Assembly: GCA_009840005.1 (NCBI GenBank)
Contig: VXOR01000039.1
Span: 1 to 39,451 of the forward strand
From: Gemmatimonadota bacterium
GTDB lineage: Bacteria > Latescibacterota > UBA2968 > UBA8231
Reading direction: 5' to 3'
Length of the DNA stretch: 39,451 nucleotides
The position numbers were made by a program, and so were the translations under genes. Within the stretch, counting starts at the first letter, position 1. Every line of letters begins with the position of its first letter. Of the stretch, positions 13,685 through 28,491 are shown in pieces. Below the pieces are notes generated by a model, which was given only the letters and a program-made list of their open reading frames with translations, did not search any database and was not told where the DNA came from.

Positions 13685-15262
13685 ATGGCCAAACCACGCA
13701 TTTTTTTCGACCACGACGGTCGGCACCCGCTGATCTACATGTACGAGCCGCCGATGCAGAAAGAAGAGCTAGAGGCGGCGGTAGACGAGTTGGTGGGGAC
13801 GCCAGTCGAGGCACTGTCGCTAACCCTGGGCGATGCGCAGAGTCTGCTCTACGATTCGCAGGTGGGTGCGTTGTGGGGACGGGATATAAAGAAGTGGCCG
13901 CATCTGATCTGGAAGCGGGCCAACCAGAATTTCACTCAATTGATCAAAGCCGGATGCGATCCGCTCCAAGTGCTCTGCGACAAAGCCCATGCCAATAGCC
14001 TGCTGCTCTACGCGATGCTATTGCCGCAGCAGGGACCGCGGGAGTTGATGTTGAAAAGCTGGGAAAATCCGCGCTTTGCCGCCGAGCAGCGCGACCCGCA
14101 GCCGTTGGAGATCGGCAGCAAGGGCGGTGTGGACGCGGAGTGGCCGGGGTATCGCGCGTGGGATTACGCTTGGGATGCAGTGCGCGAGCGGAATTTGGCG
14201 ATTGTCGAGGAAGTGCTCGCGCGCTATCCCGTTGACGGTTTTGAGCTACAGCTCAATTACTGTCCCTATTATTTTCACCCCGATGAGATTGCGACGGGGA
14301 TGGAGATTATGACCGAGTGGATAGGGCGGGTTTACGCGGCTGTAAAAAAGAGCGATCCAGCACGAGAGTTGGTCCTGCGCGTACCGGCGAATCTGGATGG
14401 ATGCCGGGCGGTGGGGCTGGAGCCATTGGAGTGGATGCGCCGGGGCATTGTCGACGCGATCGTGCCCGAGGCATCGGGAGCGGCGGATCCGTCGGCGGAT
14501 TTCAGCGCCTTCGTCAAAGCGGCACACGGGACGGCGTGTCGGGTCTTGCCGGCGTTACAGAGTCGGATCGACAGCGACCGGGTCGGTGAGGGGACGATCG
14601 AAATGGTGCGGGCGGGGGCTTGCAACTATTGGGCGCAGGGAGTCGACGGCCTCTATATCGCGCATTGGTTTGGCTGTTGGCCGTATAAGGCCGATTTCTA
14701 CCAGAAGCTGCGCGAGGTGCCCTTCCCCGAGACGATGGCGGCCAAGGACAAGATCTATCGAATCCCCAGCGAGGGCAGCGCGCCGGCACCGGAGGCGATT
14801 GCGCCGAATGTCGCTAATCCGCTACCCATTGAGTTGGCAAAGGGGCAGGCGTTACAGGTGGGTTTTGCAGTGAGCGATGATCTGAAAAAATGGAACAAGG
14901 TCAATCGGGTCCACGAGGTGATCTTGCGGGTGCGAGTGCAGGAGACGACCGAGCGGGATCGCTTGCGCTTTGCTTTTAACGGCAAAGAATTACCGCAATC
15001 GCTGCTGCGCAAAATCAATCAGATGTACGTGATGGATGCGCCGCGCTATCGGGTTTTTGGCTATTGGTATGTCTTTCGTTTGCCCGAAAAATTTAGGCCG
15101 GTGCAGGGGTGGAATGTGCTGGAGGTCGAACTGCTCAAACGGGACGGGCAGGCGCTACCGGCTGTCGTATTGCGCGATGTAGAGCTGGAAATCAAGTACT
15201 TGATGGGGAAGAATTACCATCGGGGTTTGATCGATGCAGATCTGGGACCGGGTGAATTGTAG
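13685..15262 (+). CDS. Putative TIM-barrel glycoside-hydrolase-like protein with C-terminal beta domain
   Basis: The 525-residue protein has no signal peptide. The first about 360 residues look like a TIM-barrel hydrolase of the uncharacterised glycoside-hydrolase-like type. The pattern includes a His-rich start (FFDHDGRHPLIY), DGFELQLNYCPYYFHPDE with strand-end acidic residues, the ELVLRVP strand, DAIVPEAS and GVDGLYIAHWFG. After about residue 380 the sequence becomes beta-rich (LQVGFAV, VILRVRVQE, WNVLEVELL), consistent with a carbohydrate-binding-like sandwich. The ATG follows AAGGAG at 6 nt. Several acidic residues at strand ends could be catalytic, but I cannot assign a family or pair of catalytic carboxylates. 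It follows the second PhyH gene on the same strand. Confidence 0.6.
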   Translation: MAKPRIFFDHDGRHPLIYMYEPPMQKEELEAAVDELVGTPVEALSLTLGDAQSLLYDSQVGALWGRDIKKWPHLIWKRANQNFTQLIKAGCDPLQVLCDKAHANSLLLYAMLLPQQGPRELMLKSWENPRFAAEQRDPQPLEIGSKGGVDAEWPGYRAWDYAWDAVRERNLAIVEEVLARYPVDGFELQLNYCPYYFHPDEIATGMEIMTEWIGRVYAAVKKSDPARELVLRVPANLDGCRAVGLEPLEWMRRGIVDAIVPEASGAADPSADFSAFVKAAHGTACRVLPALQSRIDSDRVGEGTIEMVRAGACNYWAQGVDGLYIAHWFGCWPYKADFYQKLREVPFPETMAAKDKIYRIPSEGSAPAPEAIAPNVANPLPIELAKGQALQVGFAVSDDLKKWNKVNRVHEVILRVRVQETTERDRLRFAFNGKELPQSLLRKINQMYVMDAPRYRVFGYWYVFRLPEKFRPVQGWNVLEVELLKRDGQALPAVVLRDVELEIKYLMGKNYHRGLIDADLGPGEL

Positions 15263-15481: not shown

Positions 15482-17422
15482 GTGGATCTAGACAAACTGC
15501 TGAGCGACGTGGATCTAGACGAAATGCTGCGCCTCTACGACGAGGCGGCTGAGGAGCTGATGCAAGTCGCCATCAGCGACGGCCACTTTGCCGACCGCGA
15601 TCCAAGCGAAATTATCTGGCCGGTGGGCAGCGACCTCGACGCGCTTGAGCGACGCGCCGAGCTAATCGGCTCCATTCACGAGGGCATCCCCTCGCTCCGC
15701 GACAAGCGCCTGCAAGAGGCCTATGACCGCTACGAGCACGTCGGCCCCGCCTACCACCAAGCGAACCGCCTCTACCTAGCAACGCGCCAGCTCTTCGTCG
15801 AACGCGGGCGCGGCGACGCACTCGATTTCCACGCACTCTACCAATCGGTCTATCTACACGCCCTAGGCCGCGACAACCCCTACACCCTTGACGAAGGCGA
15901 GGCCGCCCTCGTCAAGCTGCGGGTCTCCCGCGTGCCACTGTCCCACGCCCACGCCGTCGCCGAGAAGCTGCAAGCCGGTGCTGCGCAAAAAGAGCCCGCG
16001 ACCGACTCGGCCGACGATCTGCGCTTGGCCGAGCACTACGCCTGCGAAATCGACGGAGTGCGCCACGCCGGGACGCTGCACGACCTGCTTAGCGAGGTTG
16101 CCGAGCGCGTCGTCGATTACCTCGCCGCTGGCGAGCACCTCGCCATCCGCTTTAACACCTATAGCAACTTCATCTATCTCGGCATATCGGTGTGGAAGGC
16201 CATCACGGACGCCGACGTGCTCTTGGCCCGCATCGAAGGGCGAGTGCGCGCCCAATGGCACCAAAAGCTGTGCAAGCTGGTCCTGCTGGGTAAGGGGATG
16301 CTACTCAAGTTTCTCCAAGCCCACTCCGAAGATCCCGCCCAAATCAAGCCGAGGGAATTTTGGTACGGCCAAGAGTACAGCTACCTGACCCGCGACATGA
16401 TCGACCTGACGCGCCGCTTAGTCAGCTACGTCAACCGACTAGCGGGCCGGGTGCGGGGAGAAGTCGATCTGGTGGTCCTGCCCCCACTGCTCGACGGCAA
16501 GGCCAAGGGCCGCTTTCTCGAATATCAGCACGTTGGGCGACGCCAGAGCCTCGGCCCATGGAGCCGTCGGGCTCGCCTCTTTCAGTGGGCTTACCTCTAC
16601 TACCGCACCGGAAAGAAAAAAATGAGCCTGCTAGCGGCTCAACTCCCAGAAGCAGAGCGCCTCAAAGCCGCCAGCGCCCAAAGCAGCGAATGGGGGAGGA
16701 AATCGCTGGACATCTTCGGCATTGAATTGACCGTAAACGCCGACCCGCTCTTCGCCGACACCGCCCGCGACCTAGACCTAGCCAACAAACAGGAGAAGGT
16801 CCTTTTCCTCCCCACGCATCGCAGCCTATTCGACCATCCGGTGATGAGTACCCTGATCCACGACCCCCGCTTCCTCGAACTGATGGGCTGGCGCGAACTT
16901 CCCACGCCAGTGAGCCTCGCCCGCGCTCGCCTCACCGAACCCGCAACCCTGCGCATTGGCGGGCGCTCTTTTTCGCTGATTGGCTTTACTACCGAGGAAG
17001 TCGATCAGATCATGGAGAAAGTCGATGGGCACGTCATTATGACCCGCTCGGCCGACACCAAAAATCCCACGCGCCGCTTTGCCGAGCTCCTCGCAAAGCG
17101 GCCGGGCGTCGTCTATGGCGAGGGCACCACCGCGGCCTTTGAACAGCAGTGCTTGCCCATGCAGCACGCGCTCTTTGCTTATCTGCCGCCCGACGTGATC
17201 ATCGTGCCGCTAGCCTTTCGCGGCCTGCACTCGCTGTGGCCCAAATGTCCCCGAGGCAATCTCAACATCGGCAGCGGCCGGGTCGAAGTAATGGTTTGCC
17301 CACCCATGCTCGGCGAAACCACGCTCCTGCCGCGCAAGCGCGCCCTGCGCACGCAGCTAGAGCCAGCGACGCTCTTCCAAGCCGTGCACATCGCGCGGCT
17401 TTTTAATCCGGAACCGAGCTAG
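15482..17422 (+). CDS. PlsB/DHAPAT-type 1-acyltransferase-like protein
   Basis: The 646-residue protein has a long helical N-terminal region and a C-terminal acyltransferase domain. Motif I is THRSLFDHP, giving the HX4D catalytic pair His446/Asp451 in the HRSxxD form typical of glycerol-3-phosphate or dihydroxyacetone-phosphate acyltransferases. Motif III is VVYGEGTTAAF (Glu547-Gly-Thr), and a Pro-containing block follows in VIIVPLAFRG. Such enzymes place the first acyl chain in phospholipid synthesis. It lacks obvious transmembrane spans and is shorter than E. coli PlsB (807 residues). The start is a GTG with a weak AGG upstream; no better start is close. The gene stands alone, and AT-rich DNA begins soon after its stop. 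The acyl acceptor is uncertain. Confidence 0.75.
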   Translation: MDLDKLLSDVDLDEMLRLYDEAAEELMQVAISDGHFADRDPSEIIWPVGSDLDALERRAELIGSIHEGIPSLRDKRLQEAYDRYEHVGPAYHQANRLYLATRQLFVERGRGDALDFHALYQSVYLHALGRDNPYTLDEGEAALVKLRVSRVPLSHAHAVAEKLQAGAAQKEPATDSADDLRLAEHYACEIDGVRHAGTLHDLLSEVAERVVDYLAAGEHLAIRFNTYSNFIYLGISVWKAITDADVLLARIEGRVRAQWHQKLCKLVLLGKGMLLKFLQAHSEDPAQIKPREFWYGQEYSYLTRDMIDLTRRLVSYVNRLAGRVRGEVDLVVLPPLLDGKAKGRFLEYQHVGRRQSLGPWSRRARLFQWAYLYYRTGKKKMSLLAAQLPEAERLKAASAQSSEWGRKSLDIFGIELTVNADPLFADTARDLDLANKQEKVLFLPTHRSLFDHPVMSTLIHDPRFLELMGWRELPTPVSLARARLTEPATLRIGGRSFSLIGFTTEEVDQIMEKVDGHVIMTRSADTKNPTRRFAELLAKRPGVVYGEGTTAAFEQQCLPMQHALFAYLPPDVIIVPLAFRGLHSLWPKCPRGNLNIGSGRVEVMVCPPMLGETTLLPRKRALRTQLEPATLFQAVHIARLFNPEPS

Positions 17423-17540
17423 GGCATCCAGTCTCGGATTGGCACTTAGAGCAGATATAGTGCATTAGGGGAAACCACCAAGAACTGGAAATACAAATGA
17501 ACGCGACATGGCTTGACCTTATAATTAAAATCTCTTAACT

Positions 17541-17552
17541 TCTTGTACAAGA
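17541..17552. promoter_or_regulatory. 12-bp palindrome upstream of the protease gene
   Basis: TCTTGTACAAGA is a perfect palindrome lying 113 bp before the SDH-type protease start in AT-rich intergenic DNA. It could be an operator; no regulator can be named. The rest of 17423-17665 shows no gene. Confidence 0.25.
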
Positions 17553-17665
17553 GTGTATTACCAACTTTTTAGCATGCCTTATCATGTTGGACACCCGATC
17601 TAATTGGGGCGGTACAAACCCGTAAGGTCCCATAGTATTTGCCGAGAAGGAGAATCCATTGTAGT

Positions 17666-18676
17666 ATGTCTGAAATCGAAAAACGAAGAGATCTACTTCG
17701 ACAGATCGAGTCGGATCGTAACTCCAAGACAGTGCTCTACGTGACGGGAGATCGTCAAGGACTGGAAACCAAGATAGGCCAAGATACCATAGATTTATTT
17801 GTTGATCATTTAGACGAAATTGGGCCAGTAAAAAAGATATCGCTCGTTCTTTACACATCTGGCGGAGATACATCTGCGGCATGGAATCTGGTCAATCTTT
17901 TTCACATGTTTTGTGATGATTTTGAAATCATAGCACTAGGAAAATGCATGAGTGCTGGAACGCTTATATCGCTCGGTGCAGACCGTATTGTCATGACTAA
18001 ACAGGCAACGCTGGGGCCTATTGATCCTAGTATACAACACCCGCTTGGTCCTTCTATTCCCGGGGCAAGCCCTGAAGCACGTGCTGGAGTAAGTGTTGAA
18101 GCAGTCAAAGGCTACCTTGATGCAATCCGTAAATATGAGGCCGGCGAACTTTTTGAAGGTCAAGCTCTTATTGATCTGTCAAATAAGGTACATCCTCTCG
18201 TGCTTGGGCAGATTTTTCGGTCCAGACAGCAGATAAGAGACCTTGCTGGACGACTATTGCGGAGACATATTGACAACCAAGACCAGATAGAACAAATAGT
18301 TGACTTCCTATGCTCTGAATCTGGTAGCCACGACTATACTATCAACCGCCGAGAAGCCAGGAGACTCGGGCTGAATGTAGAAAAATGTTCCGAAGAGCTC
18401 TATGTAATTCTTCGGCAACTACGTAACAGCTTTTCCACACAAATGTTACTGCGGGAACCCTACGATATTAATATATTAGCTGCGAATGGTGGTGTGGGAA
18501 ACTATGAATTCACGCGTGCTTTAATCGAAAGTGCGGATCACGGAGCACATCATTTCGTTACGGCCGGAGAGATCGAAGTTACAGAGATTATCCAGCAAAA
18601 CCAAGACGGGACATCGCACAAACAGGTTGCTTTTCGCGATCAGCGAAAATTCGAGGGTTGGAGGAAAATTGCATGA
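17666..18676 (+). CDS. SDH-type Clp-fold serine protease
   Basis: The 336-residue protein matches the serine dehydrogenase proteinase (SDH) group, SppA/ClpP-fold enzymes without a signal peptide. The fold markers are SLVLYTSGGDTSAAW (oxyanion region), the nucleophile block GKCMSAGTLISLGAD with Ser96, and MTKQATLGPIDPSIQ, which carries the likely Lys112 and the GPIDP motif of the family. The C-terminal part is helical. The ATG at 17666 has an AGAAGGAGAA stretch about 13 nt upstream; a TTG nine codons earlier is also possible. Codon use and base composition are much more AT-rich than the flanking genes, so it was probably acquired. It overlaps the next small gene by ATGA, suggesting a two-gene unit. 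The cellular target is unknown. Confidence 0.82.
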   Translation: MSEIEKRRDLLRQIESDRNSKTVLYVTGDRQGLETKIGQDTIDLFVDHLDEIGPVKKISLVLYTSGGDTSAAWNLVNLFHMFCDDFEIIALGKCMSAGTLISLGADRIVMTKQATLGPIDPSIQHPLGPSIPGASPEARAGVSVEAVKGYLDAIRKYEAGELFEGQALIDLSNKVHPLVLGQIFRSRQQIRDLAGRLLRRHIDNQDQIEQIVDFLCSESGSHDYTINRREARRLGLNVEKCSEELYVILRQLRNSFSTQMLLREPYDINILAANGGVGNYEFTRALIESADHGAHHFVTAGEIEVTEIIQQNQDGTSHKQVAFRDQRKFEGWRKIA

Positions 18677-18876
18677 CGAAGACCGCACAAGACCCCGGAC
18701 TAGAATCGACTTTTCATGGTGGTACAGCAGCTTCAGCGTATCACCTATCGGAATCATTAGATTGGTCGAGTCTGTCGACGCAAATAAAAAACCGGGTAGT
18801 TCTTGTTCCCACTCACACGCAAACGCTGACGAACCTCGAATCACCCGAGGAAAAGAAAGAGGTACGTCAAGCCTAG
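18673..18876 (+). CDS. 67-residue protein coupled to the protease gene
   Basis: The start ATG overlaps the protease stop codon (ATGA), so translation is very likely coupled. The product is 67 residues, hydrophilic, with no membrane segment: an acidic and Ser/Thr-rich N-terminal half (AYHLSESLDWSSLSTQIKNR) and a strand-like VVLVPTHTQT before a charged end (LESPEEKKEVRQA). It could be a protease cofactor, inhibitor or substrate; nothing in the sequence chooses between these. An overlapping longer frame in another register looks like a shadow. The 162 bp after it show no further gene. Confidence 0.5.
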   Translation: MTKTAQDPGLESTFHGGTAASAYHLSESLDWSSLSTQIKNRVVLVPTHTQTLTNLESPEEKKEVRQA

Positions 18877-19038
18877 CGCCTACGGTGGCAAAAAGACGCA
18901 AGTTCCCTCCTGAACATAGGACGGACAATCCCCTGTGATTATCCTACCATCGTCCGGGACCAATGGGGTGCCATTTGTAAGGGGAAATCTATGTGCGCGC
19001 CTGTTGGGGGGCAGGACGTGCGTACTAACCGAGCTAAC

Positions 19039-22000
19039 CTAAAAGAGCGATAGCTGCTCGGCCTCCCGCCGGCGCGGCATGGCCACATCCTCGCGCGCGA
19101 GCAACTGAGCGGGGATCTCTTCCACAAACGGCGATAGTGCACACTGCACCCGCTCGCCATAGCGCTGGCGGCTGCGCGCCCGCAGCAACACCAACTCCTC
19201 CTCGGCTCGCGTCATGCCCACGTAAAAGAGCCGCCGCTCCTCGGCGAGGCTTCGACCTGAGCTCAGCCGAAGGTCGGCATCCCGCTCGCGGAAGGGGACG
19301 AGTCCGTCCTCCACCCCGCAGATGAAGACCACTGGAAACTCCAAGCCCTTGGCCGCGTGCAAGGTCATCAGCGCGACGGCCTCTGGGCTTTGAGGGCCGC
19401 CCCGCTCCTCGTAGTCGGCCTCCGCGCCTAAGAGCACAGTCTCCAGTAGCTGCGCGAGCGTTCCGGCCGCGGCCGCTACTCGGGCCAAGTGCTCCAAGTC
19501 CTCGTCCTCTGGGTCGCCGAACTCGGCCTGCCAGCGGCGCACCCAAGTCCCCGCCTCCTCCTGCTCGGCCCATCGCCTGTACTCCGCTATCCGCGCCTCT
19601 AGCGCCTCGACCCGGTTCTGCGCCGCGGCCGATAGCTCCCCTCGACGCACTTGGCGCAAAATGTGCGGCTCCGCGCCCATGGCCTCTAGTGCCTGCCAGC
19701 GGCGCACGTCCTCTTGCGAAATCGCGGCGTAGCGGGCAAACGCCAACGCTGCCCGCACGGCCGGCGCTTGCAGAAAACCCTTCTGCCCGACGAGCCGGTA
19801 GGGCAGGCCCTCCTTGCGGAAGCACTCCTCCAGCACTTGACCCTGTCGGCCGGTGCGGAAGAGCACGGCAAAGTCGGCGAAACTGCGCTTACCCTCGGCG
19901 CCAGCATCGGTCTGCACCATGTCGGTGCCGCCGACCATGCGGGCAATCTCCCGCACCACCGCAATGCCCTCGGCCGTCTCGCTCTGCACTTCGATCAAAC
20001 GGATTCTTTCCTTCCCCGGACGCACGGCGGCCAGTTCAATGGCCTCGCGCCCCGGATTGTGGCCGACGACGGCAGCGGCGGCCTCGACAATATGCCCCTG
20101 CGAGCGGTAATTCGCGCCTAGATGAAAGAGTCGCGTATCCGAGAAACGGTCGCGCAAGTGAACGAAATGGGCAGGCGAAGCCCCGCGAAAGCTATAAATC
20201 GCTTGATCCGGGTCGCCGATGGCCATCAGGCCCGCGCCTTCACCCGCCAACTGGAGGACCAATCTATACTGCGCAGCGTTGAGGTCTTGGAACTCGTCTA
20301 TCAGCAGATAGGGAAAACGCGCTCGCACCTGTTCCCGCACGGCTGCATCCGCTTCTAAGAGACGCAGCAAATCCAAGAGAATATCGTCGTAGTCGCAGGC
20401 TCTGGATGCGCGTAGAGCTTCCTGATAGGCGTCGTAATGAGGTCGCCACTCCTCGGCCACCTCATCCGGCCCCTGCGCGGCGGCCTTAGCCAGCGAGATG
20501 GCTTGACTAGCAGCGGCAACTGACCCCGACAATTCAGCGTCTGCCAGCGCCCCTTCCAACAACCGGCGCGCTTCCACCTCGTCGAGCACCAGCTTCGGCT
20601 TTGGCCTGAGCCCAGCCGAAGGCTCGCAGCCCAACTCCCGCAACAGCGACAACGCTAAGCGGTGGAAGGTCCCCACCTGCATCGCGCCCAGCCCACCGTC
20701 CAACAAGGCGCTCAGCCGCTGCCGCATCTGTCCAGCCGCCCGCCGGGTAAAGGTGATGGCCATGATCTGCCCCGGGTCCACGCCGCTTGCGACCAGCCGG
20801 GCAATGCGCCGCGTCAGCACCCGGGTCTTGCCCGACCCTGGGCCGGCCACGACCACTAAAGGCCCTCCTCCGGCCTCTTCGATTTGCCGCTGTGCGTCGT
20901 CGGGCGCGTCCCCGTCCTGTTCCGCTTGCTCGGTGCTAGCGGGGCTTGGTGGCGGCACCGCTGGAACGTGGGTTTCCTCAGCCGTCTTCGCGACCGCCGG
21001 GCCCAAGTCGAACAGCGCACCCTGTCCTTTTAAACGCGCCCGCTCCTCCTCGCTAAACACGCTGATTACGCCGTACTCTCCATCGTGGCCGGGGTAGATA
21101 TCCACCTCGCCGCCGCGCATCCGACGCACGCCTTCGGTCACCAACGGCCCGGCGCAGCTTTCAATCGCTTCAAGTCCAGCGCGGCGCAATACTTTGAGCT
21201 CTGTACCTACTTCGGCTAGGAGCCGGTCGTACACAGCGCGGACTTTCTTGGACTTCGGACCAACGCCAACCGCTGCACCGATCACTTCGTCGAGCGGGAT
21301 CAAGTACTCGTAGGACGGGGCAACATCCGGGCGAAATCCCTCCGGACGATCAGCTAGCTTCTCCACCCGGTGCAAAACCCCCACCGTCAGCTTGCGTCCA
21401 CACACCGGACAGATCCCCTCGGCGGCCAGCGTTTGCGCCGGCTTGTAGCACACCGCGCACTTGCGGTGGCCGTCGTAGTGATATTTGCCCTCTTCGGGGT
21501 AGAACTCCAAGGTGCCCAAAAAGCGCGCAGGGTCGCGGTCTTTGAGCGCAGCGTAGATGCCCGGATACGAGCACTCCGTATCAAAGCACGTGGCCTCGCG
21601 GGCCAGTTTTTGCGGCGAGTGGGCGTCGGAATTGGATACGATCGCATAGCGGTCGAGGGCCGACAGCCGCCAGTTCATCGGCGGATCTGAGGACAGGCCG
21701 GTCTCGACAGCGAAGATGTGCGGCAGCAAATCCTCGTAGCACTCCTCCAACGAATCAAAACCCGACGAAGCCCCCAACGCGGCAAAGTGCGGCGTCCATA
21801 TATGGGCCGGGATGAAGAGCACGTTCTCGTCGGCTTCGAGACAGATTTCTAAGAGGTCGCGGCTGTCCAGCCCCAAGATGGGCCGGCCGTCGGACTTCAA
21901 GTTGCCAATGGCGCCGAGGCGGTGGTTGAGTCGAGCGGCGGATTCGAGGGAGGGCAGGATGACGACGTGGTGGATCTTGCGGGTCTTGTCGCCCTTCTTG

Positions 22001-22293
22001 TAGATGGTGCTGATTTCCACCGAAAGCATGAAGCGCACAGCGCGGCGACAGCGCTCGGGCAGCTCTTGTTCCACGGCGGCGCGGCGGCCGGGCTCAAGCT
22101 GGTACAGCCCCTCTTCCGCCGGTTCAAGCTGCTCAGATAGTTCGGCGAACCACTCGGGATGCGTGTAGTCGCCCGTTCCAACTACGTCAACACCCTTGAG
22201 CGCCGACCACTTGTGCAAATTAGAGGGGTTGAGTTCGCGGCTCGTCGCTCGCGCAAAACGCGAGTGCAAATGCACGTCGATTACAAACTGCAT
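19039..22293 (-). CDS. Endonuclease Q-UvrD/PcrA helicase fusion
   Basis: The 1084-residue protein joins two DNA-repair enzymes. Residues 1-430 match endonuclease Q, which nicks 5' of deaminated bases: a PHP metal site (Asp6, His8, His10, Glu93, His109, His164, Asp223, His225 in SNSDAHS), then a four-Cys zinc knuckle (CAVC at 279-282, CPVC at 295-298) and the VYDRLLAEVGTELKVL helical part. After a Pro-rich linker (about 431-465), residues 470-1075 form an SF1A helicase: Walker A AGPGSGKT (483-490), GTFHRLAL, IDEFQD, GDPDQAIYSFRGA, LGANYRSQ, TLHAAKGLEFPVVF and YVGMTRAEE. The last five residues, QLSLF, are the consensus beta-clamp-binding peptide. The start ATG has AGGGA at 7 nt. The gene is GC-rich like the chromosome although both neighbours are AT-rich. 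A product that incises and then unwinds is inferred. Confidence 0.88.
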   Translation of the reverse strand: MQFVIDVHLHSRFARATSRELNPSNLHKWSALKGVDVVGTGDYTHPEWFAELSEQLEPAEEGLYQLEPGRRAAVEQELPERCRRAVRFMLSVEISTIYKKGDKTRKIHHVVILPSLESAARLNHRLGAIGNLKSDGRPILGLDSRDLLEICLEADENVLFIPAHIWTPHFAALGASSGFDSLEECYEDLLPHIFAVETGLSSDPPMNWRLSALDRYAIVSNSDAHSPQKLAREATCFDTECSYPGIYAALKDRDPARFLGTLEFYPEEGKYHYDGHRKCAVCYKPAQTLAAEGICPVCGRKLTVGVLHRVEKLADRPEGFRPDVAPSYEYLIPLDEVIGAAVGVGPKSKKVRAVYDRLLAEVGTELKVLRRAGLEAIESCAGPLVTEGVRRMRGGEVDIYPGHDGEYGVISVFSEEERARLKGQGALFDLGPAVAKTAEETHVPAVPPPSPASTEQAEQDGDAPDDAQRQIEEAGGGPLVVVAGPGSGKTRVLTRRIARLVASGVDPGQIMAITFTRRAAGQMRQRLSALLDGGLGAMQVGTFHRLALSLLRELGCEPSAGLRPKPKLVLDEVEARRLLEGALADAELSGSVAAASQAISLAKAAAQGPDEVAEEWRPHYDAYQEALRASRACDYDDILLDLLRLLEADAAVREQVRARFPYLLIDEFQDLNAAQYRLVLQLAGEGAGLMAIGDPDQAIYSFRGASPAHFVHLRDRFSDTRLFHLGANYRSQGHIVEAAAAVVGHNPGREAIELAAVRPGKERIRLIEVQSETAEGIAVVREIARMVGGTDMVQTDAGAEGKRSFADFAVLFRTGRQGQVLEECFRKEGLPYRLVGQKGFLQAPAVRAALAFARYAAISQEDVRRWQALEAMGAEPHILRQVRRGELSAAAQNRVEALEARIAEYRRWAEQEEAGTWVRRWQAEFGDPEDEDLEHLARVAAAAGTLAQLLETVLLGAEADYEERGGPQSPEAVALMTLHAAKGLEFPVVFICGVEDGLVPFRERDADLRLSSGRSLAEERRLFYVGMTRAEEELVLLRARSRQRYGERVQCALSPFVEEIPAQLLAREDVAMPRRREAEQLSLF

Positions 22294-22346
22294 GTTTGGT
22301 CCCTGCGTTGGAGGGTAATAGGTCGTGAGGAATAGCGGTCTGCTGA

Positions 22347-22376
22347 TTGCCCGCGTTGCAGAGCCATAGTATACTA
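22347..22376 (+). promoter_or_regulatory. Promoter and palindromic operator of the Xre-ImmA/PIN unit
   Basis: TTGCCC (22347-22352) and TATACT (22370-22375) are 17 bp apart, a good sigma70 promoter. The -10 box lies within a 10-bp palindrome TAGTATACTA (22367-22376), a likely operator for the helix-turn-helix protein encoded next. The leader to the ATG would be about 160 nt. The remainder of 22294-22543 shows no gene. Confidence 0.5.
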
Positions 22377-22543
22377 GAATATCCTACAGCCGACAGCCAG
22401 ACTTAGGTGATACCCGCTGGCAGGGTTATGATTTGATCCGCCAGTGCGTCAATGAAGTATCTCCTTGGCTAAAGGCGGAAGACCTCAGTAAAGGCAGTGG
22501 GCATCTTCGGCAACGACACGATGACGATTGTGGAGGCAGCATT

Positions 22544-23734
22544 ATGAGTGAGCCTATTTCTGTCAATCCCCAAGTCTTGCGCTGGGCGCGTACCAGCTTG
22601 GGTCTCTCGCAGGAAGAAGTGGCTCAGCGCATGAACAAAAAGGCCAGAGAGGTTGACTCTTGGGAACGCGGCGAGGCGTCTCCAACATATATTCAGTTGG
22701 AAAAGCTGGCATACGAAATCTATAAACGCCCGATCGCACTGTTCTTTTTTCCCGAGGTGCCAGAAGAGGAAACCATAGAGCAAGAATTTCGCACTTTGCC
22801 GAAGGAAGAATTGCTGCATCTCTCGCCATGGATGCGTTACCTACTCCGCAAAGCAAGAGTACTACAACTCAATCTTGACGAACTGTATGGCGGTGTGAAT
22901 CCGGCAAAACGCAGGGTGCTGCACGATCTTGATTTTGCCCCCTCTGTTGCCGCTACTGATATGGCGAAGCAAGTCCGTACCTATCTGGGCATTGAACTCG
23001 CTCAACAACAGGCATGGAAAAATACAGAAGACGCCCTCAAGCACTGGAGGGAAGTGTTGGAGGAATGCGGAGTTTTTGTTTTTAAAGACACCTTCAAACC
23101 GCCTAGAAAAAAGGGGATAAGTACGGGCGACATTCCTTTTTCTGGTTTCTGTTTATACGATCCAGATTTTCCAATTATCTACGTCAATAACAACAACACT
23201 AAATCCCGTCAGATTTTTACCTTGTTCCACGAACTGGCACATCTCCTGATGCACACTGGCGGGATAGATACTCGACAGGACAACTACATTGAGCATATGA
23301 CCGGCGACAATAGGCGCATAGAAGTGCTCTGCAATCTATTTGCCGCTGAGTTTCTGGTCCCCTCCCACGATTTTGCAGCGCGTTCGGCTGGTGTTTCTAT
23401 CGACGATCACGCTATCGAAAATTGGGCTAGCCTGTACTGCGTTAGTCGCGAAACCATCCTGCGTCGCCTACTCGACCAGGGACGAGTGCGTCAACAGGAT
23501 TACGAACAGCAGGTACAACAATGGTCAAAGGATCAAACGGGAAGTGGAGGTACGGGCGGTGATTACTATCGGACCAAGGGAGCGTATCTAGGTGAACGGT
23601 ACATTGAAATGGTGTTTAGTCATTATCACCAAGGGCATATTTCGGTGGAGCAAGCCGCTGACTATCTAGGTGCACGGGCGAAGAATGTCCCTAGAATAGA
23701 AGAATGGCTCTTCAATCAGGGAACAAGGACATGA
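22544..23734 (+). CDS. Xre helix-turn-helix / ImmA-IrrE metallopeptidase (antitoxin-type)
   Basis: The 396-residue protein combines an N-terminal Xre-type DNA-binding domain (about 8-60; LRWARTSLGLSQEEVAQRM, then VDSWERGEASP) with an ImmA/IrrE-type zinc peptidase domain whose HExxH motif is TLFHELAHLLMH. Such proteins act as repressors that can be cleaved or as antitoxins in two-gene units. The ATG follows GGAGG at 7 nt; the upstream frame would start at TTG and is rejected. Its stop overlaps the start of the following PIN-type gene (ATGA), matching the known pairing of Xre-ImmA proteins with DUF4411. AT-rich relative to the chromosome, so likely mobile. Confidence 0.88.
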   Translation: MSEPISVNPQVLRWARTSLGLSQEEVAQRMNKKAREVDSWERGEASPTYIQLEKLAYEIYKRPIALFFFPEVPEEETIEQEFRTLPKEELLHLSPWMRYLLRKARVLQLNLDELYGGVNPAKRRVLHDLDFAPSVAATDMAKQVRTYLGIELAQQQAWKNTEDALKHWREVLEECGVFVFKDTFKPPRKKGISTGDIPFSGFCLYDPDFPIIYVNNNNTKSRQIFTLFHELAHLLMHTGGIDTRQDNYIEHMTGDNRRIEVLCNLFAAEFLVPSHDFAARSAGVSIDDHAIENWASLYCVSRETILRRLLDQGRVRQQDYEQQVQQWSKDQTGSGGTGGDYYRTKGAYLGERYIEMVFSHYHQGHISVEQAADYLGARAKNVPRIEEWLFNQGTRT

Positions 23735-24207
23735 CAGTCTATGTGTTCGACAGTGGCCCACTGATTGATCTTTTTCGCCACTATTACCGAGATCGATTTC
23801 CCTCTTTGTGGGAAGCATTTGATGCGATGGTTACAGAAGGTCGAATTACTTCGACGCGAGAAGTATTTAACGAATTGGATTCACACGGTGATGACTTGGC
23901 GGCTTGGTGTAAGGAGAATAGGCAGCAGGTATTTATAACGCCAAGCTCGGAGGAACTGGAGTTCGTCAAGGCGATATTTGAAGTCAGGCATTTTCAGGCG
24001 ATGATTCGCAAGAAGGAGCGCCTTCAGGGAAGTTCGGTTGCCGATCCGTTTGTTGTTGCACGAGCAAAGTGTTTAGAAAATGGTTGCGTTGTAACGACCG
24101 AAAAATACAGTCCCAATGCCGTGAAAATTCCAAATGTTTGTGAGTATTTTGGGGTCGATTGTACCAACCTCAAAGAATTCATGGAACGAGAGAAGTGGCG
24201 TTTTTGA
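23731..24207 (+). CDS. DUF4411 PIN-like toxin
   Basis: The 158-residue protein has a PIN-type ribonuclease outline: YVFDSGPLIDLF at the N-terminus (Asp7), a middle Glu in STREVFNELD, and a third acidic site in SSVADPFVVARAKCLENGCV. The last block, VVTTEKYSPNAVKIPNVCEY, is characteristic of DUF4411 proteins. Family members are the toxin halves of Xre-ImmA-linked modules and are expected to cut RNA. The start ATG overlaps the antitoxin stop by ATGA; an ATG nine codons earlier lies within the antitoxin gene and would be out of pattern. All acidic positions appear intact, so unlike the toxin stub at 3.6 kb this one looks functional. Confidence 0.82.
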   Translation: MTVYVFDSGPLIDLFRHYYRDRFPSLWEAFDAMVTEGRITSTREVFNELDSHGDDLAAWCKENRQQVFITPSSEELEFVKAIFEVRHFQAMIRKKERLQGSSVADPFVVARAKCLENGCVVTTEKYSPNAVKIPNVCEYFGVDCTNLKEFMEREKWRF

Positions 24208-24246
24208 GAGGCCCCTCAATTCGTAGCAGCAACCCTTGTCGTCACC

Positions 24247-26133: not shown

Positions 26134-28371
26134 CTACAGCCCACTCACGGCTGCGACGAGCGCCTCAGTCGTAATGCCGAAGTGCGCCCACGTCTCTAGA
26201 TGGCCTTCTGACGGGGCCGTCGTCGGGTCGGTAATGCCGATGTGCGCCGCCGGAATGCCCAAGTCGCCGGCGACGCCCGCCACCAGCCCAGCAAAACCGC
26301 GCACGCCGACATTGGCTGCGCCGATCAGACCGTCTTCGATAGTTACCACGCCCTTGGGATAGCGACCCACTAGCTCTTCTAAGGCAGCGGCAGGCAGCGG
26401 CAGACCGTTGATGATATGCACATCCACCCCACCTTCGAACTGCTCAGCCGCCTCTCCAGCCAGAAAAGCCGGCGCGCCAAAAGCCAATATCGCCCGCTCG
26501 GCTCCAGCGTAAGTGCGATAGGCCGTCAGCGGCTCCCAATCGTCGCCCGCCTCCCACAGCGGCCCCGAGCCATCTTGCTTTTCGAGGATGGGCAGGGAGT
26601 CGCGCGGGATGCCGATGATGTGCCCTCCGTAGTGCGCCGCCATATCGCAGACTGCCAAAAACGCCGCCCGCGCATCGGCTGGCCCGTAGAAGCGGTGCAA
26701 ATAGGGCAAATAACTCAAGCCGACGTTGATCCACTCCAAGCCCCAACCCGAAAAGTGATCGCGCCCGGTGCAGGCCCCCACGTGCGAGACGTGGAAGGCG
26801 ACGTTGAGGCCCTCGTTGACGCCGGTGAGGTTGCGCTGATAGCGCCAGACGTCAAAGCCCTCGCGGGCAATGCCCTCGTAAAAGGCGGCAAACGTCGATA
26901 CCACATTGAGCTGCGGACCCGGCCCGCTCATCGCCAACCCGTCCGTGATCAGACAAGCGGCCTGCTCCTCAATGCTCATCTCGAATTGGTGATCCGCGGT
27001 CAAGAAGCCGCGTGCCTTCGCCAGCTTGGTCGAAGGATCTAGATCGCAGCTAACGACGAAGACATCGTCGGGAAAATGCGCGGCCACCGCTGCGTACGCA
27101 GCCTCGGACCCAGCGCGCGGACTTTCGCTTGTGCCCACCTTGGGCAAGCTAACTTTTTCCCTCACATCTTGGGACAGAACCAAGTTGCGGCTGCCGGGAG
27201 CAGGTCTAGCTCGGGTCTCAACTTGGCGCTTCTCGTCTTGGCGCAGTGTCGCCAAGGCTTGATCCGCAGCCGCTGTCTTTTGGAACATCGGATTGCTCAG
27301 CACTTGCGCAGCGTCGCGGCCTTTCATGTGGCCGTCGTGATGCCCTTCGCCGCCGGGGAGCTTGTTGACCAAAAAGAGGCACTCGAGCATCGGCACTACG
27401 TCGCGGTAGCTCATCAGCGAGCCGGGAACCCAGATGCGAGTATTGAGCTCGACGCCGTGCTCGGCGGCAAATGCTGCGACCTCGGAACCAATGCCCATGC
27501 GCTCGCCAAAGTCGCCGAGTTGCTCGTGCGTTCCCGTGGGATAGATCAGCGTCGGCCGACCCTGCTGCGCCAGTTTGTAGCCTTCGACATAGGTTTCGTA
27601 GAGCACCGCAGCGTCGTGCAGAGTCTCGACCTCGATGACTTCCACGCCCATCGCCGCGACGATCGGACGCGGGTCCTTGTCCATAATGCCCTCGGTCGCG
27701 CCCGAAAGCTGGATGCCGTTGCGGTGCATGACGAAGGTGATGGGTGCTCCGTGGACGGCTGCGCCGTTGAAGCCGTTGAGCGCTTGGCCCGAGATATAGC
27801 CGGCGTCGCCACAGTGGCAGATGACCCAGCCCCCCTCGCCGCGCCTAGCCCGCTTACCGAGGGCTTGACCCACGGCCACCGGAATCATCACCCCCAAGCG
27901 CCCGCCGTTGAGTTGGGTGCCGCCCGGCAGCCAAGACACGTGCCCAGGCGCGTCGAGCCCGCGGCGAAAACCCTCGACGACGATCTCCTCATCGATAAAG
28001 CCCAATGCCGCCAGTGCCGCGTAGTAGCCAACTGAGGTGTGGGCGTGTTCGATGGTGTATTCGATGCGTTCGTAGTCGGTGATGGCCAAAGTCAGCAAGA
28101 GCGACGGAATCAGCTCTAGACCGCCACCGAGGTGATCCAACTCGCCGATTTCAGCCAGCGAGGCCAGCGAGCGAATCGCGATTGCGGCTGCTTCGATCTG
28201 CAAGCCCTCTAGGGCGGCGATTTGCTCTTGCTGCAGCGCTTGTCGGTTGCCGATATCCACGGTGAGCGGCAAGACCTCGGAATGCACTTTCTCGCCTAGA
28301 TAGCGCACTCCGCCCAACAGCTCTTTGTTGCGCTGCTGTTGTCCCGTTTGCGCCGCCTCGATCCCCCGCAT
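26134..28371 (-). CDS. Transketolase-like thiamine-diphosphate enzyme
   Basis: The 745-residue protein has the domain order of a transketolase. In the first half ICHCGDAGYISGQALNGFNG followed by HRNGIQLSG corresponds to the thiamine-diphosphate GDG...N motif (GDG is GDA here), with EHAHTSVGYYA upstream. The second half has SIEEQAACLITDGLAMSG with the Glu expected to activate the cofactor, and the GRDHFSGWG block, then a C-terminal domain. Specificity is not readable; transketolase, phosphoketolase-like and related acyl transfer activities are all possible. The ATG at 28371 has GGGAG at 6 nt and is preferred over an ATG at 28404 and over the longer frame. A REP-like hairpin pair lies just upstream. 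The sugar-acid enzymes elsewhere in the window fit a pentose or hexose route. Confidence 0.8.
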   Translation of the reverse strand: MRGIEAAQTGQQQRNKELLGGVRYLGEKVHSEVLPLTVDIGNRQALQQEQIAALEGLQIEAAAIAIRSLASLAEIGELDHLGGGLELIPSLLLTLAITDYERIEYTIEHAHTSVGYYAALAALGFIDEEIVVEGFRRGLDAPGHVSWLPGGTQLNGGRLGVMIPVAVGQALGKRARRGEGGWVICHCGDAGYISGQALNGFNGAAVHGAPITFVMHRNGIQLSGATEGIMDKDPRPIVAAMGVEVIEVETLHDAAVLYETYVEGYKLAQQGRPTLIYPTGTHEQLGDFGERMGIGSEVAAFAAEHGVELNTRIWVPGSLMSYRDVVPMLECLFLVNKLPGGEGHHDGHMKGRDAAQVLSNPMFQKTAAADQALATLRQDEKRQVETRARPAPGSRNLVLSQDVREKVSLPKVGTSESPRAGSEAAYAAVAAHFPDDVFVVSCDLDPSTKLAKARGFLTADHQFEMSIEEQAACLITDGLAMSGPGPQLNVVSTFAAFYEGIAREGFDVWRYQRNLTGVNEGLNVAFHVSHVGACTGRDHFSGWGLEWINVGLSYLPYLHRFYGPADARAAFLAVCDMAAHYGGHIIGIPRDSLPILEKQDGSGPLWEAGDDWEPLTAYRTYAGAERAILAFGAPAFLAGEAAEQFEGGVDVHIINGLPLPAAALEELVGRYPKGVVTIEDGLIGAANVGVRGFAGLVAGVAGDLGIPAAHIGITDPTTAPSEGHLETWAHFGITTEALVAAVSGL

Positions 28372-28407
28372 GTATAACTCCCACTTAGATATTCTGATAC
28401 GCATTGT

Positions 28408-28491
28408 AGGGCACCCCTTGTGGCTGCCCTTTTCAGATCCCGTTGGCTGAATGCGCCGGGTAGCGTAGGCGTCCACAAGGGACGCCCCTAC
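28408..28491. repeat. REP-like inverted pair of hairpins
   Basis: Two imperfect palindromes, 28408-28430 and 28465-28491, share a core CCTTGTGG with flanking TAGGG...GCCC arms and lie in opposite orientation (AGGGCACC..TTGTGG..TGCCCT; on the other strand TAGGGGCGTCCCTTGTGG). This resembles a bacterial REP/BIME pair. It separates the transketolase-like gene from the dehydrogenase gene. Confidence 0.5.

Follow-up and report, generated by a model that had tools for sequence, protein, structure and literature searches.

What does a bacterial protein do in which endonuclease Q (EndoQ) and a UvrD-type helicase are joined in a single chain? The question is raised by a gene on contig VXOR01000039.1 of a Gemmatimonadota bacterium (GenBank assembly GCA_009840005.1); the whole contig, 39,451 nucleotides in length, is the window analysed here. 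The gene is a single unbroken, ATG-started open reading frame at 19039-22293 on the reverse strand, and its product, P0001, has 1084 residues. An earlier reading of the letters of the window, hereafter the original prediction, had described the gene as an EndoQ fused to a helicase, and such a fusion it is: the frame is intact, both halves match their families, and relatives are found in many phyla. The favoured reading, held at a probability of roughly 0.6, is that it encodes a chromosomal repair enzyme in which a bacterial EndoQ and a dedicated UvrD-type helicase form one polypeptide held at the beta clamp by two motifs. The case for the anatomy of the fusion, drawn from sequence and a structure model, is strong, and the activity of the protein is predicted. 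The features of the gene are listed below with the corresponding residues of PfuEndoQ; conservation is counted over 62 fusions (alignment A1), which were our pick from 71 near-full-length loci and 120 proteins.

19039..22293, reverse strand: EndoQ-UvrD fusion gene, 1084 residues (P0001), intact; the start matches the corresponding residue in loci L001 and L003
21028..22293, reverse strand: EndoQ domain, residues 1-422, with the PHP catalytic part and the zinc and C-terminal parts
21802..22017, reverse strand: catalytic residues E93, H108 and H164 (PfuEndoQ E76, H84 and H139), present in 62/62 fusions
21691..21699, reverse strand: lesion-gate residues G199 and S201 (PfuEndoQ G169 and S171), present in 62/62 fusions
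21400..21468, reverse strand: zinc knuckle H276-x2-C279 ... C295-x2-C298, with putative ligands assigned from conservation
21010..21024, reverse strand: internal beta-clamp-type motif QGALF, residues 424-428, at the end of the EndoQ domain (alignment and shuffling)
20914..21009, reverse strand: linker, residues 429-460, disordered in the model and poorly conserved (predicted local distance difference test, pLDDT, and alignment conservation)
19078..20913, reverse strand: SF1A helicase of the UvrD/PcrA type, residues 461-1072, with an all-helical 2B region
19042..19056, reverse strand: C-terminal beta-clamp-type motif QLSLF, residues 1080-1084 (alignment and shuffling)

The EndoQ half is identified by sequence, fold, and functional residues. 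PfuEndoQ (PDB 5zb8) matches residues 6-422 with an E-value of 6e-48, 392 residues of it can be aligned with the AlphaFold2 model of the fusion, and its fold is found over the whole length of the EndoQ domain. E93, H108, H164, G199, and S201 are invariant in all 62 aligned fusions, as is D223, the counterpart of PfuEndoQ D193 (asparagine in the 7k30 chain). According to section 15 of PMC8307549, PfuEndoQ E76, H84, and H139 are essential, their mutation abolishing activity, and H139, G169, and S171 act as a steric gate that excludes normal bases. Another PHP family as the source of the N-terminus is ruled out by the sequence, the fold, and the catalytic and lesion-gate residues, which upholds the original assignment of this half. 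The EndoQ zinc knuckle that had also been read from the window is present as a separate element, with H276, C279, C295, and C298 each kept in 62/62 fusions and an additional cysteine at 282 in 43/62; it differs from the four cysteines of PfuEndoQ. The first position is histidine in 120 of 120 listed unfused relatives and cysteine in PfuEndoQ, and this histidine is the presumed ligand in place of the cysteine. The stretch preceding the knuckle also differs from PfuEndoQ.

The match to the family model TIGR00375, over residues 6-410, reaches 166.2 bits and stays below the cut-off of 326.6. In surveys of three phyla, those of genomes G001, G005, and G020, the EndoQ matches all stayed below this cut-off as well. 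Because of these scores, the protein is treated as representing a divergent bacterial subfamily of EndoQ and not as a member of that model. Compared with the known EndoQ proteins (PfuEndoQ, PDB 5zb8 and 7k30, and the archaeal and Bacillus proteins of TIGR00375), the whole-length fold, the metal residues, the lesion gate, and a clamp-type motif where the EndoQ part ends are common to both. In contrast, the window protein is fused to a helicase, has histidine as its presumed first zinc ligand, scores below the TIGR00375 cut-off, and carries an additional clamp-type motif at its far C-terminus.

The remainder of the chain is a complete SF1A helicase, as originally proposed. UvrD-helicase and UvrD_C matches span residues 466-1037 (PF00580, 204 bits; PF13361, 139 bits), PcrA (1pjr) matches residues 470-1066 in two stretches, and the Walker A sequence GPGSGKT, DEFQD, and the other helicase motifs are legible. 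In the model, 579 residues of the DNA-bound Deinococcus UvrD (DrUvrD) align across residues 461-1072 with a root-mean-square deviation of 2.9, and in the same structural alignment the 1B and 2B accessory domains are present as in UvrD. Neither of the two PcrA/UvrD equivalog cut-offs is reached, the scores being 367.3 against 911.2 bits for TIGR01073 and 303.7 against 1144.45 bits for TIGR01075. The full motor and the accessory domains are shared with UvrD, PcrA, and Rep of SF1A, at 31-39% identity over the aligned residues of those chains, whereas the helicase of the fusion groups with EndoQ-linked helicases in the tree described below. Between the two halves, the AlphaFold2 model (mean pLDDT 87.2, predicted template modelling score, pTM, 0.60) falls below a pLDDT of 50 across residues 427-460, which suggests a disordered linker, and the conservation minimum of the 62-fusion alignment lies at residues 441-460. 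The EndoQ half is on the whole better conserved than the helicase half. In loci L001 and L003, the fusion begins at the residue corresponding to the start of the window gene, and the best segment matches at 94%.

The place at which such a protein might work is suggested by two short motifs, which the original prediction did not mention and which were found here by sequence comparison. QLxLF is given in part of PMC4549789 as a beta-clamp-binding consensus, often C-terminal. Passages of PMC4858679 report that the C-terminal PIP box of thermococcal EndoQ is needed for PCNA binding and stimulation, and that bacterial EndoQ homologues had earlier been seen to carry C-terminal beta-binding motifs. 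The fusion ends in a motif of the QLxLF type, the sequence signature of a candidate beta-clamp client. At the internal QGALF site, glutamine is found in 60/62 fusions and leucine, phenylalanine, or methionine at +3 in 62/62; at the terminal QLSLF site, glutamine is found in 60/62, leucine at +3 in 57/62, and phenylalanine at +4 in 57/62. Each glutamine is thus kept in 60/62 fusions, and the surrounding residues vary. When the pattern Q-x-x-[LMIF]-[FLWY] was scored, with shuffling of the same residues as the control, it was present in 59/62 C-terminal tails (shuffles give 4.5) and 54/62 internal regions (shuffles give 4.7). It was absent from all 19 complete tails of PcrA/UvrD paralogs in the carrier genomes, one of the 20 control tails having been excluded because its frame runs to the contig end. 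Among 120 listed unfused EndoQ proteins, 84 have Q-x-x-[LMI]-F as their very last residues, 20 have Q-x-x-L-L there, and 2 carry one residue beyond the motif. What is new here is that the fusion keeps the EndoQ motif internally and has a second one at the helicase end; clamp binding is predicted from both.

The link between EndoQ and this helicase is also seen where the two are separate. A survey of the loci, which brought out a two-gene form likewise missing from the original prediction, rests on 80 loci kept from at least 545 confirmed related stretches in a genome scan. In 6 of the 80 (L017, L019, L048, L060, L070, and L078), EndoQ and the helicase are encoded side by side by two genes, L070 being counted despite an in-frame stop in its helicase. 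In all six, EndoQ ends in Q-x-x-[LM]-F directly before the stop, and in 5/6 the helicase start codon lies 6 to 9 bases past this stop in the same frame. A different case is L007:4361-7822, where the fusion lies in two frames with the break inside the helicase, by sequencing error or in a damaged gene; it was kept out of the two-gene count. Locus L017, titled Nitrospirae, belongs to genome G020; in the phylum of that genome, an EndoQ match was found in 45 of 100 genomes and never in a frame longer than 516 residues, so none looks fused. Among the best 30 loci of this phylum, 12 have the helicase no more than 0.9 kb downstream of EndoQ, in 11 cases as its immediate neighbour; two of the 12 are again L017 and L078.

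Trees were built by a quick method from subsets of 82 (helicase) and 87 and 50 (EndoQ) rows, with near-duplicates and truncated rows excluded. The helicase tree places 53 fused and 9 split rows in one clade (Shimodaira-Hasegawa-like approximate likelihood ratio test, SH-aLRT, 97), which excludes 17 of the 20 other helicase rows. Two helicases of about 610-620 residues (L129 and L130), from two Clostridia-type genomes and encoded away from the fusion gene's place, lie inside this clade; a second role of the EndoQ-linked helicase line is possible. In the EndoQ tree of 50 rows, from which PfuEndoQ is left out, a single branch with an SH-aLRT of 100 separates the 29 fused rows from the 21 unfused ones, a split that a single fusion or a single fission would explain. 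A tree of 87 rows with its root on the PfuEndoQ branch, which is very long, has the unfused proteins nested among the fused ones, and the fused label needs 2 changes.

The distribution of the gene resembles that of a chromosomal housekeeping gene. The titles of the 80 loci, which answer the original call for a survey of phyla, include Gemmatimonadetes, Latescibacterota, Bacillota, Anaerolineae, Caldilineae, KSB1, Zixiibacteriota, Caldithrix, Spirochaetes, Deltaproteobacteria, Geobacter, SAR324, and Bacteroidales, among others. A protein search gave at least 7993 candidates, all with E-values up to 0.001. With "fused" taken as an open frame of at least 900 residues at the EndoQ match, a measure of the length of the EndoQ-matched frame only, the phylum of G001 has the fused form in 37 of 64 genomes and that of G005 in 13 of 101. 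In the latter phylum, 31 genomes have a higher-scoring stand-alone type of EndoQ (at least 195 bits), with no overlap with the 13 fused ones (chance 0.006, kinship ignored). A single contig (C112 of G014, the genome of L008) has EndoQ matches in frames of 1216 and 445 residues, about 10 kb apart on opposite strands. At an E-value of 1e-5, a search of phage (50,697) and plasmid (72,556) records gave no EndoQ match. Of 47 stretches on viral contigs matched by EndoQ-derived patterns, 4 encode relatives, of the helicase part only and at 21-24% identity; a phage or plasmid gene was rejected on these searches. The spread over many phyla and the lack of EndoQ in phage and plasmid records are the reasons for which the gene is said to behave like a chromosomal housekeeping gene.

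In the parts of PMC4858679, PMC4357722, and PMC7776575 that concern its occurrence, EndoQ is portrayed as chiefly an archaeal enzyme that also occurs in a few genera of bacteria. The literature search gave no description of an EndoQ-UvrD fusion, an earlier mention being possible in the structure papers (NAR 2018, PNAS 2021) or in the Bacillus pumilus EndoQ paper (2017); the passages of the literature that name both EndoQ and UvrD include none that joins the two. Four of the 120 listed fused relatives are named, three as "UvrD-helicase domain-containing protein" and one as "uncharacterized protein (TIGR00375 family)". Among the listed unfused relatives of 423 residues, some are named "endonuclease Q family protein" and others "DNA helicase UvrD".

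The surroundings of the gene explain its odd composition. A GC-rich gene between AT-rich neighbours had been noticed originally, and the contrast is confirmed, with a GC content of 0.62-0.68 over 19-22 kb against 0.475-0.54 on both flanks. It arises because the flanks are accessory insertions that are variably present in close relatives. In L001, conserved genes reach the fusion gene on both sides, and the window stretches 17422-19038 and 22311-24244 are absent. The equivalent of 17422-19038 in L003 and L004 is about 670 bases without a window match, and 22311-24244 is missing in L001, L002, and L003 and present in L004. The oddity therefore lies in the AT-rich neighbours and not in the old chromosomal fusion gene. 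The first of these AT-rich stretches holds a gene for a ClpP-like SDH-type serine protease (17639-18676, forward strand). The second is a cassette encoding a protein with helix-turn-helix (HTH) and M78-peptidase parts and a DUF4411 protein, a pair that resembles the toxin-antitoxin type. Three further open reading frames of the window (13685-15262, 15482-17422, and 26134-28476) are long, lie in stretches matched in close relatives, and have no Pfam match at 1e-5.

Around the fusion in other loci, the neighbours vary and a conserved operon partner is not supported. The commonest neighbour family, HhH-GPD, accounts for 4 of 58 scanned neighbours, and three of these four bear the name endonuclease III. 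An endonuclease III gene (nth, above the NCBIfam cut-off) lies directly downstream of the fusion in three loci (L046:9241-9888, L047:9196-9855, and L071:9270-9965), two titled Clostridium and one Candidatus Lachnoclostridium. In another locus, a gene for an IS607-type transposase lies directly downstream (L005:9338-9994).

Whether the fusion takes the place of other repair enzymes can be read from the genomes that carry it. The carrier set was chosen by us as 50 of the 80 loci, and 49 genomes were counted (44 fused, 5 two-gene); this set and the phylum sets are rich in metagenome-assembled genomes with completeness not given, and the counts for uracil-DNA glycosylase (UDG), endonuclease V (EndoV), PcrA, and MutL are to be read accordingly. 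UDG is present in 44/49 carriers. The phylum of G020 has it in 44 of 45 EndoQ-positive and 53 of 55 EndoQ-negative genomes. The fusion is thus not a stand-in for UDG; the suggestion that carriers might lack this glycosylase, and that the fusion substitutes for it, did not hold. A PcrA/UvrD-like protein of at least 700 bits, a line drawn by ourselves, coexists with the fusion in 42/49 carriers (the official TIGR01073 cut-off is passed in 11/49). MutL is above its cut-off in 41/49, and replacement of PcrA/UvrD or MutL is ruled out for most carriers. EndoV (PF04493) is found in 5/49. The fusion sits beside UDG, PcrA/UvrD, and MutL in most of the carriers examined, and not instead of them.

A working scheme can be proposed from this anatomy, with the cut site, the ends, and the substrates taken from papers on archaeal EndoQ. 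The fusion would ride the beta clamp through the motif at the EndoQ end, the C-terminal motif, or both. Its EndoQ domain would take up hypoxanthine, uracil, xanthine, or an abasic site by flipping it into the pocket, and would cut the backbone 5' of the lesion, so that one side of the nick ends in a 3'-OH and the lesion nucleotide bears a 5'-phosphate; a cut 5' of the lesion with these ends is described for EndoQ in part of PMC4357722. The linker would keep the helicase at the nick, where it would load on the intact strand and move 3' to 5', the direction of UvrD translocation given in a passage of PMC7776575. Since a 3'-5' motor starting at the 5' nick on the intact strand displaces the downstream strand, the strand carrying the lesion at its 5' end would be removed. 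Loading on the intact strand would be the productive arrangement, as on the nicked strand the motor would peel off the sound primer. A polymerase would then extend the 3'-OH, other nucleases would remove the flap, and ligase would seal; clamp tethering would bring the polymerase and the fusion enzyme together. That one polypeptide cuts and then unwinds, as the original prediction had it, is something we infer; the activity of this protein, its clamp binding, the coupling of cutting to unwinding, and the later steps are all predicted. The wider proposal is tentative and stands somewhat short of even odds: an undescribed, glycosylase-independent excision pathway in many phyla, in which a single clamp-tethered polypeptide would make the EndoQ nick 5' of a deaminated base behind the fork, the helicase, secured by the other clamp motif, would strip the lesion strand, and long-patch resynthesis would follow.

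Several observations weigh against the reading of a clamp-held repair enzyme. The motif pattern is short and not universal, being absent internally in 8/62 fusions and terminally in 3/62, and 14 of the 120 listed unfused EndoQ proteins end in letters of neither the QxxLF nor the QxxLL type. With a pTM of 0.60, the mutual placement of the domains is not fixed by the model. Only 129 of 383 aligned residues are identical to PfuEndoQ and the TIGR00375 score is below its cut-off, so the substrate range may differ from that of PfuEndoQ; we know of no activity for the EndoQ-UvrD subfamily. No conserved neighbour family beyond the fusion itself was found across loci among the 58 scanned of 94 located same-strand immediate neighbours. 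The two-gene helicase of L070 is interrupted by one in-frame TAA. No helicase was seen beside EndoQ, up to about 1.4 kb beyond the match, in 18 of the best 30 loci in the phylum of G020, where EndoQ may therefore work without a helicase. Three of the 20 other helicase rows (L123, L129, and L130) fall inside the EndoQ-linked clade, L123 being the same protein as the split helicase of L019.

Among the alternatives, a hypoxanthine specialist, in which the fusion mainly replaces EndoV and UDG handles uracil, is possible though on the doubtful side. EndoV and EndoQ share direct, glycosylase-free nicking at deaminated bases, whereas EndoV belongs to another Pfam family, has no helicase part, and cuts 3' of the lesion according to passages of PMC8307549 and PMC7776575. 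The low count of EndoV in carriers against that of UDG (5/49 and 44/49) fits such a division of labour. In the phylum of G001, EndoV occurs in 3 of 44 EndoQ-positive and 8 of 20 EndoQ-negative genomes (p 0.0025, kinship ignored). In contrast, the corresponding counts for the phylum of G020, 8 of 45 and 16 of 55, do not differ significantly (p 0.24), and in that of G005 EndoV is rare anyway (2/101) and too few for a test. The whole comparison ignores kinship, and uracil is also cut by PfuEndoQ (PMC8307549, section 15). A leaning of the fusion towards hypoxanthine is thus possible, the EndoV contrast being significant in one of the two testable phyla.

The presence of a UvrD-type helicase in the same chain as two clamp-type motifs would also suit a strand-marking nickase of mismatch repair, in which clamp-bound EndoQ nicks the new strand at a stray uracil or inosine and the helicase starts the excision, much as MutL and UvrD do. 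A part of PMC8034640 reports that Caulobacter MutL appears to act as a replisome endonuclease. A nick followed by helicase-driven strand removal is common to both systems, as a working analogy only, whereas MutL acts with MutS on mismatches and as separate proteins. With MutL in 41/49 and PcrA/UvrD-like proteins in 42/49 carriers, there is mostly no gap to fill, and this role is improbable.

Anti-phage defence, in which the fusion would nick and unwind phage DNA bearing uracil or other modified bases, is more improbable still. Its helicase part does match the PADLOC models of GajB, the UvrD-like helicase of Gabija, at 283.6 bits at best, and a review suggests that bacterial EndoQ may join antiviral defence (PMC8307549, section 15). 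However, the general PcrA model scores higher, at 367.3 bits, so the GajB match is what any UvrD relative would give. The partner of GajB is GajA, and the five neighbours scanned with PADLOC (one to the left, four to the right) gave no GajA match, which rules out Gabija. The gene also stays between conserved chromosomal genes while the flanking stretches come and go, and EndoQ has no match in plasmid or phage records. An EndoQ half that no longer cuts lesions and only guides the helicase to the clamp or to damaged sites, for which the low identity to PfuEndoQ and the differing stretch before the zinc knuckle might be cited, is highly unlikely against catalytic and gate residues invariant in 62/62 fusions and an EndoQ half that is on the whole the better conserved.

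For the family, the clamp-held EndoQ-helicase reading bears first on what happens after incision. To our knowledge, what follows the EndoQ nick is unsettled. Both the natural fusion and the two-gene form suggest that a helicase acts next, and the two clamp-type motifs suggest where. The fusion also bears on the naming of proteins, as UvrD and EndoQ labels are both in use among its relatives. If the proposed pathway is true, it would do for deaminated bases what the MutL-UvrD step does in mismatch repair.

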